DNA from: SAR116 cluster bacterium AG-426-B08
GTDB taxonomy: Bacteria > Pseudomonadota > Alphaproteobacteria > Puniceispirillales > Marisalimonadaceae
Direction of reading: 5' to 3'
NCBI GenBank assembly: GCA_003213175.1
Contig: QCNN01000008.1
Location: 1-39,478 of the forward strand
Length of the DNA stretch: 39,478 nucleotides
Shown: positions 24,059 through 39,478 of the stretch, piece by piece
Layout of the letters: each line of letters starts with the position of its first letter
How positions within the stretch are numbered: the first letter of the stretch is position 1
Made by a program: the position numbers and the translations under genes
The notes under the pieces: model-generated
What the model saw: the letters and a program-made list of their open reading frames with translations, nothing else
Database searches by the model: none
Told to the model about the DNA's origin: nothing

Positions 24059-24874
24059 ATGTCTGGTCTAATGGATAAAAAATGCGGTTTAGTAATGGGT
24101 GTTGCTAATGATAAATCAATTGCTTGGGGTATAGCCAAAGCAATTGCTGATCAAGGAGGTAAAATTGCTTTTACTTACCAAGGTGAGGCTCTAAAAAAAA
24201 GGGTTACCCCATTAGCTAATTCAATTAACTCAGATATCATATTAGAATGTGATGTTTTAAATGATAAGGATATTGATAATACATTTGAAAAATTAAGTAA
24301 AAAATGGCCTAGAATTGATTTTTTAGTTCATGCAATTGCATTTTCCGATAAAGAAGAATTAAAAGGAAGTTATATTGATACATCCAGAAGTAATTTTAAA
24401 AAAACTATGGATGTTTCAGTATATTCATTTACAGCAATTGCTCAAAGGGCAGCTTCAATGATGAACGCTGGTGGTTCAATGCTTACTCTAACCTATTATG
24501 GTTCTGAAAAAGTTATGCCTCATTATAATGTAATGGGATTAGCAAAATCAGCCCTTGAGTCTTCTGTTAGATACCTAGCAGCAGATTTAGGAGAAAATAA
24601 TATAAGAGTTAACAGCTTATCTGCTGGACCTATTAAAACTCTAGCTGCAAGTGGTATAGGTGACTTTAGATATATTCTAAAATGGAACGAATTTAATTCT
24701 CCACTTAGAAGAAATGTTACATTAGATGATGTTGGTGGAAGTGCAGTTTATCTACTTTCAAATTTATCAAGTGGCGTTTCAGGTGAAAATCATCATGTTG
24801 ATTGTGGATACCATGTTGTAGGAATGAAAGCAATTGACGCTCCAGATATGAGTCCTGAAAAAATTAATAAATAA
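24059..24874 (+). CDS. fabI: Enoyl-[acyl-carrier-protein] reductase (NADH), FabI type
   Basis: Catalyses the last reduction in each fatty acid elongation cycle. It is an SDR-fold protein with the FabI-type cofactor loop GVANDKSIAWGIAKAI in place of TGxxxGIG. Catalytic Tyr and Lys are Y156 and K163 in HYNVMGLAKSALESSVRYLA, the same numbers as in E. coli FabI. SAGPIKTLAASGIGDF forms the substrate loop. The length is 271 aa. It is 16 nt ahead of aroC. fabI close to aroC and pdxH is a recurrent alphaproteobacterial arrangement. It is functionally linked to accB/accC elsewhere in the window. Confidence 0.97.
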   Translation: MSGLMDKKCGLVMGVANDKSIAWGIAKAIADQGGKIAFTYQGEALKKRVTPLANSINSDIILECDVLNDKDIDNTFEKLSKKWPRIDFLVHAIAFSDKEELKGSYIDTSRSNFKKTMDVSVYSFTAIAQRAASMMNAGGSMLTLTYYGSEKVMPHYNVMGLAKSALESSVRYLAADLGENNIRVNSLSAGPIKTLAASGIGDFRYILKWNEFNSPLRRNVTLDDVGGSAVYLLSNLSSGVSGENHHVDCGYHVVGMKAIDAPDMSPEKINK

Positions 24875-34974: not shown

Positions 34975-35751
34975 ATGACAAAAAAGAGAAAAATAGTTAT
35001 TACTGGTTCAAGTAAAGGAATTGGAAAATCAATTGCTTACAAGTTTGCAGAAAATAATTGTGATATTTTTATTATTTCATCAAATAAAGAAAATTTAAAA
35101 AAAGTAGCTTTAGGTATAGAAAAAAAAACTAAGACAACTGTTAAATATTGTGCAGCCAATTTGAAAACAAAAGAAGGTTGTAATTTAGTGATTAATGAAG
35201 TTAAAGAACAATTTGATAGTTTTGATACATTGATTTTCTGTGCGGGTGATACTAAAAGTGGTGATTTTTTAACGCAACCAATTGAAGATTTTTATGATGG
35301 TTTTGCACTAAAATTCTATAGTGTAGTAAGATTATCAAAAGGTTTATGGAATATTTTAAAAAGAAAAAAAGGATGGCTCTTAACTATCAATGGTGGTATG
35401 GCCCATACACCAGATCCAAATTTCATGGTAGGTGGTTCCGTTAATGCAGCATTACAAAATTTTACAAAAGCATTGTCTAAAAAAGGTATATTAGATGGAG
35501 TTAACGTTAATTCAATAAACCCAGGTATGACCTCAACAGACAGATTAATATCTATAATAAAAGGAAATGCAAAGAGAGAAAAAATTAGTTTTGCAAAAGC
35601 TAAGAAAAATGCACTTGAATCATTAAATCTTAAGAGGTTTTCAACACCCGAAGAAATTGCGGAAGTAGCTTTTTTTATTTGTCAAACTAAAGTAAGACAT
35701 CTTAATGGTACCGAAATAAACTTAGATGGTGGTAAAAAACCAACGATATAA
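34975..35751 (+). CDS. Short-chain dehydrogenase/reductase family protein lacking the catalytic Tyr-Lys
   Basis: 258-aa SDR-fold protein. The NAD(P)-binding motif is intact (TGSSKGIG, 10-17) and the NNAG position reads FCAGD. The catalytic segment WLLTINGGMAHTPDPNFMVGGSVNAAL does not carry Tyr-x-x-x-Lys. By alignment with ordinary SDRs the Tyr becomes G153 and the Lys becomes N157, and the usual Ser region is NGG (139-141). I recall other uncharacterised SDRs with a similar NAAL pattern, so this is likely a subfamily and not decay. INPGMTSTDRL and HLNGTEINLDGG complete the fold. It is 15 nt upstream of a TPP enzyme with a good Shine-Dalgarno. The reaction, if any, is unknown. Confidence 0.85.
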   Translation: MTKKRKIVITGSSKGIGKSIAYKFAENNCDIFIISSNKENLKKVALGIEKKTKTTVKYCAANLKTKEGCNLVINEVKEQFDSFDTLIFCAGDTKSGDFLTQPIEDFYDGFALKFYSVVRLSKGLWNILKRKKGWLLTINGGMAHTPDPNFMVGGSVNAALQNFTKALSKKGILDGVNVNSINPGMTSTDRLISIIKGNAKREKISFAKAKKNALESLNLKRFSTPEEIAEVAFFICQTKVRHLNGTEINLDGGKKPTI

Positions 35752-35766
35752 GGCAAAGGAATTATT

Positions 35767-37437: not shown

Positions 37438-38277
37438 TTATTTATTTAATACCTTATACACTTCTGTATGATCGGCCTCTTGCCCAAGAAAACTCAGTGA
37501 AGAATTTAAATAACTTAAAACGTTTTTTGAAAGCGGTGATTCCTTAGTTAGATTCTCAATCAATCCGTTTGCTATTGACACATCTTTGACCATTAAATTA
37601 AGAGAAAATCCAGAATTAAATTTTTGTGAAATGACAAATTTATCTAATTTAACTTCTGTAGAATTATTCTTCCCTGTTGAACTATTAATGATTCTTAAAA
37701 AACTTACTTCATCAATACCAACTTTTCTAGCAGCATTAAGCGCCTCTAAACTAGCTATTAACCCCGCGGCAGAAACATAATTATTTAATGATTTCATTGC
37801 ATGACCAGATCCCAAAGGTCCAGTCATTTCTACTTTTCCCATGACTTGCAGAATTTTTATAACTTTTTTAATTTCATGTAAATCACCACCAACCATGATC
37901 ATTAACTCTCCAGTTATTGCTTTTGCCACACCACCCGATACTGGAGCATCTATTAAAGTTAAGTTTTTCTTATTTAGTCTTTTACCCAAAACCATAGTAT
38001 CTTCCGGATTACTAGACGACATATCAATCATAATAGATTTCGTATTTGATTTAATTAATTCTTCAGCAGTTTTTGATACCTCTTTACCATCTGGTAACAT
38101 AAAAATAACTACATCTTTATCTGATAAATCATTTACATTTCTGACATTAATGATACCACTATCTTCTAATTCTTTCTTTCTAATATCAAAGCCAAAAACT
38201 TTGTAACCAGCCTTTACTAACAGAGGTGCCATAACTGAACCCATTGCTCCTAGCCCTATAAAACCTATATTTTCCAT
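37438..38277 (-). CDS. 3-hydroxyisobutyrate dehydrogenase-family NAD(P) oxidoreductase
   Basis: 279-aa beta-hydroxyacid dehydrogenase. The Rossmann motif is GFIGLGAMG (5-13), and the family signature DAPVSGGVAKAITGELMIMVGG marks the substrate-binding loop. The catalytic Lys is in GHAMKSLNNYVSAAGL (near 168). Possible substrates include 3-hydroxyisobutyrate, tartronate semialdehyde/glycerate and related acids, which sequence cannot tell apart. A strong Shine-Dalgarno, AAGGAG, lies 6-7 nt before ATG 38277 in the 15-nt gap after the CoA-transferase gene. The two are very likely one operon. It is convergent with the TPP enzyme, 21 nt away. Confidence 0.92.
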   Translation of the reverse strand: MENIGFIGLGAMGSVMAPLLVKAGYKVFGFDIRKKELEDSGIINVRNVNDLSDKDVVIFMLPDGKEVSKTAEELIKSNTKSIMIDMSSSNPEDTMVLGKRLNKKNLTLIDAPVSGGVAKAITGELMIMVGGDLHEIKKVIKILQVMGKVEMTGPLGSGHAMKSLNNYVSAAGLIASLEALNAARKVGIDEVSFLRIINSSTGKNNSTEVKLDKFVISQKFNSGFSLNLMVKDVSIANGLIENLTKESPLSKNVLSYLNSSLSFLGQEADHTEVYKVLNK

Positions 38278-38292
38278 TTATTCTCCTTACGT

Positions 38293-39478
38293 TCAATCAA
38301 CAAATATAACACCACTTCGTATTAATTTATTTATTTCATTACTTTTTAGTCCTAAATTTTTAAGAGTTTTTATTGAGTCTCCTCCCAATTTAGGTGCAGG
38401 TTTTGTTTTTATTTTAAGATCCTTATTATCAAAAATAATAGGCAACTTTGTAAACATTAATTTTCCCTCAGAAGGGTGTTCCATTTTCCTAAAAAAGTTA
38501 GTTTTTTTTAGATGTTTATCTTTAAAAAGTTCATCTGGATAATTCAATTTCATCGATGGTATATCCCCTTTTCTAAGTTTTCTAATCCAATTTTTTGTCG
38601 TATCAGAAACTAATTCTAAACTTAAGATTTTATATAACTCATCAACATTTTCGTTTCTACTTTTTAAACTAGAAAACTTTCTTTTCTTTAAAATTCTCTC
38701 TTTACCTATAATCTTTAAAAATCTTAACCATTGATCATCATTATATGGAAGTACGGCTATATAACCATCTTTTGTCTTATAAGGTTTTCTGTTTGGTGAA
38801 GATTGCCTTGGGTAAATTGGTGGTCCTTTTGGCGGTATGAAATTATAACCATAAAGATGTTCAACTAATGTAAAATCAACCATAGTCTCATACATGGGAA
38901 CTTCAATCTCATAACCTTTTTGGGTCTTTTCTCTCTCAAACAAAGCTGAAACTATACTTAACCCTAGCATTAAACCTGTGGCTTTATCTGCTGTCGCACC
39001 AGACGTATATGATGGTTCTTTAGAGTATGCAGATTGATAACTTGCCATACCACTACAGGCCTGAATAGTATCGTCAAATGCTGGTAAATCTGAATAAGGA
39101 CCTTGACTAGAAAAACCAACAGCCACAGCAGTAATTATTTTCTTATTATATTTTAAAAAGTTTTTGTGAGTGAAACCTAGACGTTTTAAAGCTGGCTTTC
39201 TTATATTTGAAACAAAAATATCAGAATCAGCAATTAATTTGTATATTATTTTTTTTCCTTCGTCTTTTTTGAGATCTATTGAAATACTTCTTTTGTTTCT
39301 ATTTAGATTTAAAAAAACAGCTCCCATACCTTTATTTACTGATGGACCAATATATCGTGTATTATCACCTTCTAATGTTTCAACCTTTATCACTTCTGCT
39401 CCTAAATCTGCAAGAATTCTTGTGCAATATGGCACCATTAATATTGAAGAAACATCAATAATTTTAATACCACTTAGG
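38293..39478 (-). CDS. CaiB/BaiF class III CoA-transferase, 5' end beyond the window
   Basis: Family III CoA-transferase, moving CoA between acyl-CoA and a free acid through an aspartyl-CoA mixed anhydride. The reading frame stays open to the window edge. Before the first internal ATG (39438) it encodes LSGIKIIDVSSIL, the conserved CaiB N-terminal motif, so the true start lies outside. The catalytic Asp is in PAFDDTIQACSGM. Other conserved parts are ILADLGAEVIKVE, RNKRSISIDLKK and PNRKPYKTKDGYIAV. The C-terminal half is intact through GGDSIKTLKNLGL. The substrate is unknown. It is the first visible gene of a pair with the 3-hydroxyisobutyrate dehydrogenase-type enzyme. Confidence 0.93.
   Translation of the reverse strand, partial: LSGIKIIDVSSILMVPYCTRILADLGAEVIKVETLEGDNTRYIGPSVNKGMGAVFLNLNRNKRSISIDLKKDEGKKIIYKLIADSDIFVSNIRKPALKRLGFTHKNFLKYNKKIITAVAVGFSSQGPYSDLPAFDDTIQACSGMASYQSAYSKEPSYTSGATADKATGLMLGLSIVSALFEREKTQKGYEIEVPMYETMVDFTLVEHLYGYNFIPPKGPPIYPRQSSPNRKPYKTKDGYIAVLPYNDDQWLRFLKIIGKERILKKRKFSSLKSRNENVDELYKILSLELVSDTTKNWIRKLRKGDIPSMKLNYPDELFKDKHLKKTNFFRKMEHPSEGKLMFTKLPIIFDNKDLKIKTKPAPKLGGDSIKTLKNLGLKSNEINKLIRSGVIFVD

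Follow-up and report, generated by a model that had tools for sequence, protein, structure and literature searches.

As read from the sequence of P0001 and those of its relatives, this gene is a real and well-conserved short-chain dehydrogenase/reductase (SDR) that lacks the catalytic Tyr and carries a relocated lysine, in a clade shared with AerF and BacG, and its product probably still functions as an enzyme, through unusual chemistry, and is not a dead protein. The gene lies in a window of 39,478 nucleotides from SAR116 cluster bacterium AG-426-B08 (contig QCNN01000008.1), and its coordinates and those of its neighbours are collected in Table 1. The frame starts with ATG and stays open for 258 aa, the reverse-strand frame over the same region shows stops throughout, and its product scores well above the cut-offs of the SDR profiles PF13561 (107.9 bits vs 27) and PF00106 (105.2 vs 26.6). 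Classical features of the family such as the Rossmann fold and the TGxxxGxG cofactor motif are present according to Pfam, the sequence and an AF2 model. The cofactor site reads VITGSSKGIGK, which agrees with the kept glycine motif and the intact frame claimed in a preliminary description of this DNA, and strand beta-2 is followed by Ser-Ser, not acidic residues, at positions 35-36. In the available text of PMC4988501 a TGxxKGIG motif is described as predicting NADP(H) preference, and from this motif and the Ser-Ser pair we infer that P0001 is probably NADPH-dependent. Sequence prediction was uninformative, with no terminators and 11 promoter-like sites where shuffled sequences gave 14.1 on average.

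Table 1. Features of the P0001 region (positions in the window)
Feature	Positions	Strand	Evidence or remark
SDR gene P0001 of the Lys/Asn-swapped (KN) clade	34975..35751	+	PF13561, PF00106, AF2 model, tree
TGSSKGIG codons, residues 10-17	35002..35025	+	NAD(P)-binding glycine motif
Lys113 codon	35311..35313	+	Classical tetrad Asn position; predicted helix 103-131
Gly140 codon	35392..35394	+	Classical tetrad Ser position
Gly153 codon	35431..35433	+	Classical tetrad Tyr position
Asn157 codon	35443..35445	+	Classical tetrad Lys position
Arg190 codon, in NPGMTSTDR	35542..35544	+	Clade-typical; putative anion binder (substrate carboxylate or cofactor phosphate)
Gap of 15 nt, SDR stop to TPP gene	35752..35766	+	Ribosome-binding-like AAAGGA, by eye
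TPP-dependent enzyme gene, acetolactate-synthase type, 549 aa	35767..37416	+	Conserved SAR116 partner
3-hydroxyisobutyrate-dehydrogenase-family gene	37438..38277	-	Convergent; SDR link unproven
Class III CoA-transferase gene	38293..39477	-	Open to window end, start may lie beyond; SDR link unproven

The classical SDR tetrad is formed by Asn, Ser, Tyr and Lys, the Asn being located in helix alpha-4. In P0001 these four positions read K113, G140, G153 and N157. The Ser region is INGGM (N139-G140-G141), the YxxxK region is FMVGGSVNAAL, and Lys113, within the stretch DGFALKFYSVVRL, aligns with KLFEVNIMSGVRL of the canonical chain 3t4x, so that in the alignment the Asn and Lys positions are exchanged and Ser is replaced by Gly. 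The NGG of the Ser region, the G153 at the Tyr position and the N157 at the Lys position had all been read correctly from the sequence alone; the statement that no catalytic Ser, Tyr or Lys remained holds for the usual places, but it missed an invariant lysine at the Asn position of the tetrad. G140, G153, G154 and N157 are found in all 45 SAR116 rows, a uniformity that together with the substitution pattern against the related locus L009 speaks against chance or sequencing error as their origin.

The wider distribution of these residues was followed in an alignment of 209 SDRs, a similarity-picked sample with 50 places added from a PF13561 search of 21 genomes (the window's own and 20 others), in which 24 rows are of FabI type and from which identical rows and those shorter than 180 aa were dropped. 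Lys occupies position 113 in 108 of the 209, accompanied at 157 by Asn (102), Arg (4), Asp (1) or Gly (1), and position 157 in 98, accompanied at 113 by Asn (58), Ser (24), Asp (13) or His, Val and Leu (one each); no row has Lys at both positions and three have it at neither. In a thinned set, 63 KN rows picked by K113 and N157 were compared with 60 canonical rows picked by Y153 and K157, a choice of groups that leaves the counts of G140, R190, R119 and canonical K113 as the sole free observations. G140 is present in 63/63 KN vs 0/60 canonical rows, 59 of the latter having Ser there, R190 in 62/63 vs 4/60 and R119 in 61/63 vs 8/60, and none of the 60 canonical rows, selected as they were by Tyr153 and Lys157, has K113. 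Both groups have the Gly-rich motif and the PG..T segment.

The Tyr position itself is variable among the 102 KN rows (Gly 95, Pro 3, Ala 2, Ser 1, Asn 1; Gly in 56/63 of the thinned set), and Val, Ile and Ser also occur there in KN members added from plasmids. Such variation at 153, with K113, G140, N157 and R190 kept, is what would be expected if the Tyr site had lost its role. Moreover, no Tyr column appears among the columns that are at least 80% uniform in KN rows. A conserved Tyr/Lys pair elsewhere in the active site had been named as evidence that would count against the first reading; half of such a pair, Lys113, was found, and with no conserved Tyr elsewhere in the KN rows a pair shifted as a whole along the sequence is discarded. 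Two Tyr residues were considered: Y117, seen in 8/102 KN rows and in 0/45 SAR116 rows (which all read Val or Ala at 117 and Gly at 154; V117 and G154 in P0001), and Y115, seen in 44/45 SAR116 rows (the other reads X). Position 115 is often His, Phe, Met, Leu, Ile or Val elsewhere in the clade, and this variability is the reason why Y115 is not proposed as the acid.

P0001 belongs to a KN clade with AerF and BacG/YwfH that shares ancestry apart from the canonical SDRs. In a tree of 138 SDRs, all 63 KN rows including AerF and BacG group at SH-aLRT 98, together with one K-D and one T-R row, and a wider K113 clade (SH-aLRT 97) adds four proteins with Lys113 and Arg157; these are quick trees with SH-aLRT values and without bootstraps, built from a similarity-based sample in which SAR116, FabI and D-Y-K rows were thinned. 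When columns 113, 140, 153, 154 and 157 and seven long-branch rows are removed, the two clades are still recovered at 92 and 87, respectively. The sole K113 row outside the clade, L005 (K113, Gly157), sits on a long branch. Members are seen in alpha- and betaproteobacteria, Acidobacteriota, Myxococcota, Latescibacterota, a cyanobacterium (AerF), Bacillus (BacG) and haloarchaea. The set K113, G140, N157 and R190 is also carried by 6/8 plasmid relatives checked, two haloarchaea included; the two without it come from Streptomyces and Gloeothece. Phage homologues of the SDR amount to 65 records, with identities of at most 27% among the five matches listed.

Regarding existing family models, the best NCBIfam match of P0001 is NF004779 (PRK06125), the top of 210 families matched, with 153.9 bits and below the cut-off of 261. 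The same model is the best one for five other KN proteins scanned (L038, L040, L122, L176 and L181), and L040 exceeds its cut-off (364.4 vs 261). It is named only 'short-chain dehydrogenase/reductase', with no further function, and a literature search by its name returned nothing on it. A search for the Lys/Asn exchange as a clade likewise found no description, which is no proof of absence, as the BacG structure paper was not among the results. The exchange is distinct from the divergent YxxMxxxK motif of FabI-type SDRs, with Met at the Tyr position and the Lys kept: the 24 FabI-type rows of the alignment read S-M-K at 113/153/157, where P0001 reads K-G-N. One further SDR of the window (24098-24814, L150) reads S-M-K at these positions and looks like a FabI-like enoyl-ACP reductase. 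Other SDRs with altered tetrads in the same genome read K-T-R (L002, G000:C56:781-1524), C-T-R (L127, G000:C10:16007-16720) and N-V-K (L133, 195-947), and L002 falls in a small K-R clade adjoining the KN group.

An SDR fold is predicted for P0001 with good overall scores (AF2, pLDDT 90, pTM 0.89), the stretch 143-145 beside the Ser region being modelled poorly (pLDDT <50). The model superposes on SDR chains over 238-255 residues with Z values of 31.8-34.3 among the best 50 rows of VIA-align; the top match is L-sorbose reductase (3ai3, Z 34.3), and the BacG chain 3u4c reaches Z 32.0. In Foldseek 3u4c ranks fourth, and the AerF entries 6jhb, 6jha and 6jh7 come at the seventh to twelfth places, amid ordinary reductases. 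With ordinary carbonyl reductases among the top fold matches, the fold is uninformative about the chemistry. By sequence, the best solved relatives are AerF (6jh7, 5.1e-26) and BacG/YwfH (3u49, 9e-25); in a profile search three canonical chains move ahead of BacG, which then ranks fifth. Three other proteins of the K113 clade (L040, L176 and L041) likewise have AerF as their best solved match.

Both solved relatives share the exchange with P0001 at a considerable distance. AerF, whose entry 6jhb is titled as a complex with NADPH and 4-hydroxyphenylpyruvic acid, has the equivalents of Lys113, Gly140, Asn157 and Arg190, but it is 27-28% identical, carries Ser in place of the tetrad Tyr and a Tyr at 117 (Gly and Val in P0001), and is encoded, unlike P0001, in a non-ribosomal-peptide gene cluster. 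BacG/YwfH, the bacilysin reductase of Bacillus subtilis (3u49/3u4c), has the K/N exchange and the equivalents of Gly140 and Arg190, with 27% identity in structure comparisons and a place in the bac operon. An H2HPP reductase of BacG type would be expected beside genes for making prephenate-derived amino acids (BacA, BacB and BacF types); the genes immediately around P0001 are a helicase-type gene, the TPP enzyme, the 3-hydroxyisobutyrate-dehydrogenase-type gene and the CoA transferase. In their work on the BacG structure, Rajavel and colleagues (Acta Cryst. D 2013) reportedly named Lys113, Tyr117, Ser155 and Asn158 as its tetrad, with hydride delivered by conjugate addition, and the spacing in the BacG sequence (K, Y at K+4, S at N-3, 45 residues from K to N) fits this tetrad. 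Compared with it, P0001 keeps only K and N, the Tyr being replaced by V117 and the Ser by G154. On the present alignment, K and N are the core common to KN proteins and SAR116 has a barer version of it. Both AerF and BacG are reported as double-bond reductases, and BacG turns epoxy-3E-H2HPP into epoxy-4S-H4HPP according to the available text of a bacilysin review (PMC9147277).

It is very likely, judging from conservation and relatives, that P0001 is catalytically active. The reading that we prefer, and hold tentatively, is that of a working NAD(P)H-dependent oxidoreductase of the KN clade that would carry out conjugate C=C reduction of an anionic unsaturated substrate, a best guess that follows from the reports on BacG and AerF. 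In the proposed mechanism K113 would take over the positive charge of the active site and polarise or protonate the substrate, N157 may hold the cofactor ribose or a water, and R190 would anchor the anionic group. Hydride from NADPH would then add in 1,4 fashion to a carbonyl-conjugated C=C bond, as reported for BacG and AerF. K113 would stabilise the resulting enolate and water or solvent would protonate it, which would make a Tyr acid unnecessary. The SAR116 substrate would most simply be a 2-oxo acid or related anion, made or used by the adjacent TPP enzyme. The 'different chemistry' contemplated at the outset, among other non-classical modes of action, is the option that fits best. A partial parallel is given by isopiperitenone reductase from Mentha, an SDR ene-reductase with Glu in place of the catalytic Tyr, in which a change of this residue switched between ene- and keto-reduction; as far as the available text of PMC4988501 goes, it differs in having Asn, Ser and Lys in place, that is, a single substitution with no Asn/Lys exchange. 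Against conjugate reduction it must be considered that the two clade members with a known reaction are, at 27-28% identity, too far away to fix substrate or reaction type, and that about half of the relatives outside SAR116 sit in operons of acyl-CoA enzymes, unlike BacG and AerF.

These outside relatives comprise 42 loci at 32-44% identity from other alphaproteobacteria, SAR324, Deltaproteobacteria, Acidobacteriota and a Latescibacterium. Within the DNA covered, their neighbours include genes of the ApbA/ketopantoate-reductase type (21 loci), CoA transferases (19), Gfo/Idh/MocA proteins (19) and acyl-CoA dehydrogenases (16), often in the same gene order, and some operons add, at a greater distance, an enoyl-CoA hydratase, MaoC, a second SDR of D-Y-K type and a xylose-isomerase-like gene. 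A recurrent order is illustrated by L038 (5093-12697), with an ApbA-type reductase, the KN-SDR, an acyl-CoA dehydrogenase, a FadX-like CoA transferase (below cut-off) and a Gfo/Idh/MocA gene, and similar operons occur in L085, L092, L096, L101, L111, L114 and others. By these neighbourhoods, many genes of the KN clade look catabolic.

Alcohol dehydrogenases are common in such settings, and this lends some weight to another possibility, which we regard as real but doubtful: that P0001 is a carbonyl reductase or dehydrogenase with a rearranged proton relay, in which K113, or a water on K113 and N157, would act as acid/base in place of Tyr. L-sorbose reductase as top fold match points the same way. 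Classical keto-reduction, however, depends on Tyr and Ser, and among KN rows Gly occupies the Ser position in 63/63 cases and the Tyr position in 56/63; moreover, both clade members with a described reaction are reported as a double-bond reductase or as converting H2HPP to H4HPP. A Tyr-less bacterial SDR with a cofactor-bound structure does exist in BcSDR of Burkholderia cenocepacia, whose LxxxK motif has Leu for Tyr and which is proposed to use Ser or Asn instead, but according to the available text of PMC11614110 it keeps Ser, Asn and Lys.

A non-redox or redox-neutral activity (isomerase, epimerase, dehydratase or retro-aldol), with NAD(P) structural or recycled and K113 serving as base or forming an imine, would be permitted by a site that lacks Ser and Tyr but retains a lysine. 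It is nevertheless unlikely, as neither AerF nor BacG is described as an enzyme of this kind, and in their Gly-rich motif and PG..T segment the KN rows do not depart from canonical ones.

In SAR116, the SDR and the TPP-dependent enzyme form a conserved gene pair. The TPP gene lies directly downstream of the SDR in 42/43 SAR116 loci of a genome scan, the contig of the remaining one ending 91 bases past the SDR match, and in 30/30 family loci of a second search, which overlaps the first set and includes the window's own locus. Its product passes NF006052/PRK08199 (545.9 bits vs a cut-off of 539), a subfamily that resembles acetolactate synthase and whose name says no more than 'thiamine pyrophosphate protein'. 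Among the 43 loci the 3-hydroxyisobutyrate-dehydrogenase-type gene is found in 40 and the CoA transferase in 37, and the loci without them end early. All seven family genomes without the SDR also lack a TPP orthologue (matches there of at most 37% identity), and the three control genomes with the SDR carry one, at 66-67% identity; this co-occurrence is weak as proof of function, given that the seven genomes are 59-88% complete and the genes are adjacent.

Outside SAR116 the picture is different, and the tight coupling to a TPP enzyme asserted in the preliminary description stands within SAR116 but not beyond it. No close copy of the window's TPP gene was found in 44 non-SAR116 loci, some of them with short flanks, and a general coupling of KN-SDRs to this enzyme is unsupported there. 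A TPP gene at 23% identity occurs in four of them (L093, L106, L108 and L116; BLAST, E 1e-20). The closest outside relatives of the SDR and TPP genes among sampled genomes of the class lie in one genome, G515, on different contigs, in neighbourhoods that gave no clear reading, as the ORFs of this GC-rich DNA overlap. Relatives of the TPP enzyme at 36-38% identity also occur on plasmids, and of three such regions examined, one is unannotated, one names no SDR, and the third, L138, has an SDR pair 4 kb from the TPP relative that is canonical in both members (NYK). On the loci sampled, the link between KN-SDR and TPP enzyme is local to lineages. A second KN-SDR/TPP neighbourhood, distinct from that of SAR116, is seen in L106 (518-8759), L108 (1960-8759) and L116 (541-8753), where the KN-SDR lies about 4 kb from the 23%-identity TPP enzyme, with TctA- and TctC-like transport genes in between; the transporter names, as well as IclR-like and aldehyde-dehydrogenase-like labels, were assigned here from the appearance of the sequences. 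In L232 (3684-6798, a Natrinema halophilum plasmid) a haloarchaeal KN-SDR is divergent from an adjacent gene for a TPP-dependent enzyme, which is followed by the beta subunit of an alpha-ketoacid dehydrogenase; an IclR regulator flanks the SDR on its opposite side.

The neighbourhoods bear on the suggestion, also made in the preliminary description, that P0001 is a pseudoenzyme: it might sense the cofactor, or it might assist the TPP enzyme in a regulatory or structural role. The loss of the classical catalytic residues, the adjacency of the TPP gene wherever a SAR116 locus extends far enough to show it and the joint absence of both genes in 7/7 genomes would be in keeping with it, the last being explained equally well by linkage in incomplete assemblies. 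Sensing or partnership is now disfavoured and appears improbable: relatives with the same signature sit in other operons, with no close TPP copy in the 44 non-SAR116 loci, K113, G140, N157 and R190 are near-fixed across the clade, and AerF and BacG, solved reductases with the same swap, are described as enzymes.

The SDR is under purifying selection, with a dN/dS of 0.092 for the window vs L009, from which it differs by 12 nonsynonymous changes and 30 synonymous ones; the TPP gene gives 0.081 (window vs L042). In the genome scan it is present in 30/37 genomes of its family, without internal stops among the 34 matches listed, and the nearest named relative, SAR116 cluster bacterium AG-426-I14, has an SDR 95% identical. 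The gene was thus rightly considered functional, and a decaying gene or a frame or assembly error, which has the unusual residues themselves and nothing else in its favour, is dismissed by these values together with the same residues in 45/45 SAR116 rows.

Returning to conjugate reduction by P0001 and its relatives, we propose, still more tentatively, that the Lys/Asn exchange may represent a separate catalytic solution among SDRs, in which K113, G140, N157 and R190 are nearly invariant and neither Tyr nor Ser is required, and which would be used mostly in the catabolism of unsaturated carboxylates. Two of its branches, AerF and BacG, would have specialised, and the SAR116 pair would serve a marine 2-oxo-acid route of its own. 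Existing annotations, where there are any, label KN proteins 'SDR family oxidoreductase' or even FabG despite the textbook residues being gone, and the four-residue signature offers a simple test that separates them and joins many catabolic-looking genes to two reductases with solved structures. Whether the move of a lysine to helix alpha-4 is a general route from keto-reduction to flavin-free C=C reduction becomes a testable question. The AerF/BacG type was already known; no description of the SAR116 setting was found in the literature, and the SDR-TPP pair points to a carbon pathway in these marine bacteria. The surroundings of the pair show some variation: in L044 (10513-12126) the TPP gene is separated from the 3-hydroxyisobutyrate-dehydrogenase-type gene by two small genes with secreted- or lipoprotein-like starts, and the same spacing is seen in L045, L054 and other SAR116 loci, while in the window the TPP and dehydrogenase genes are adjacent.
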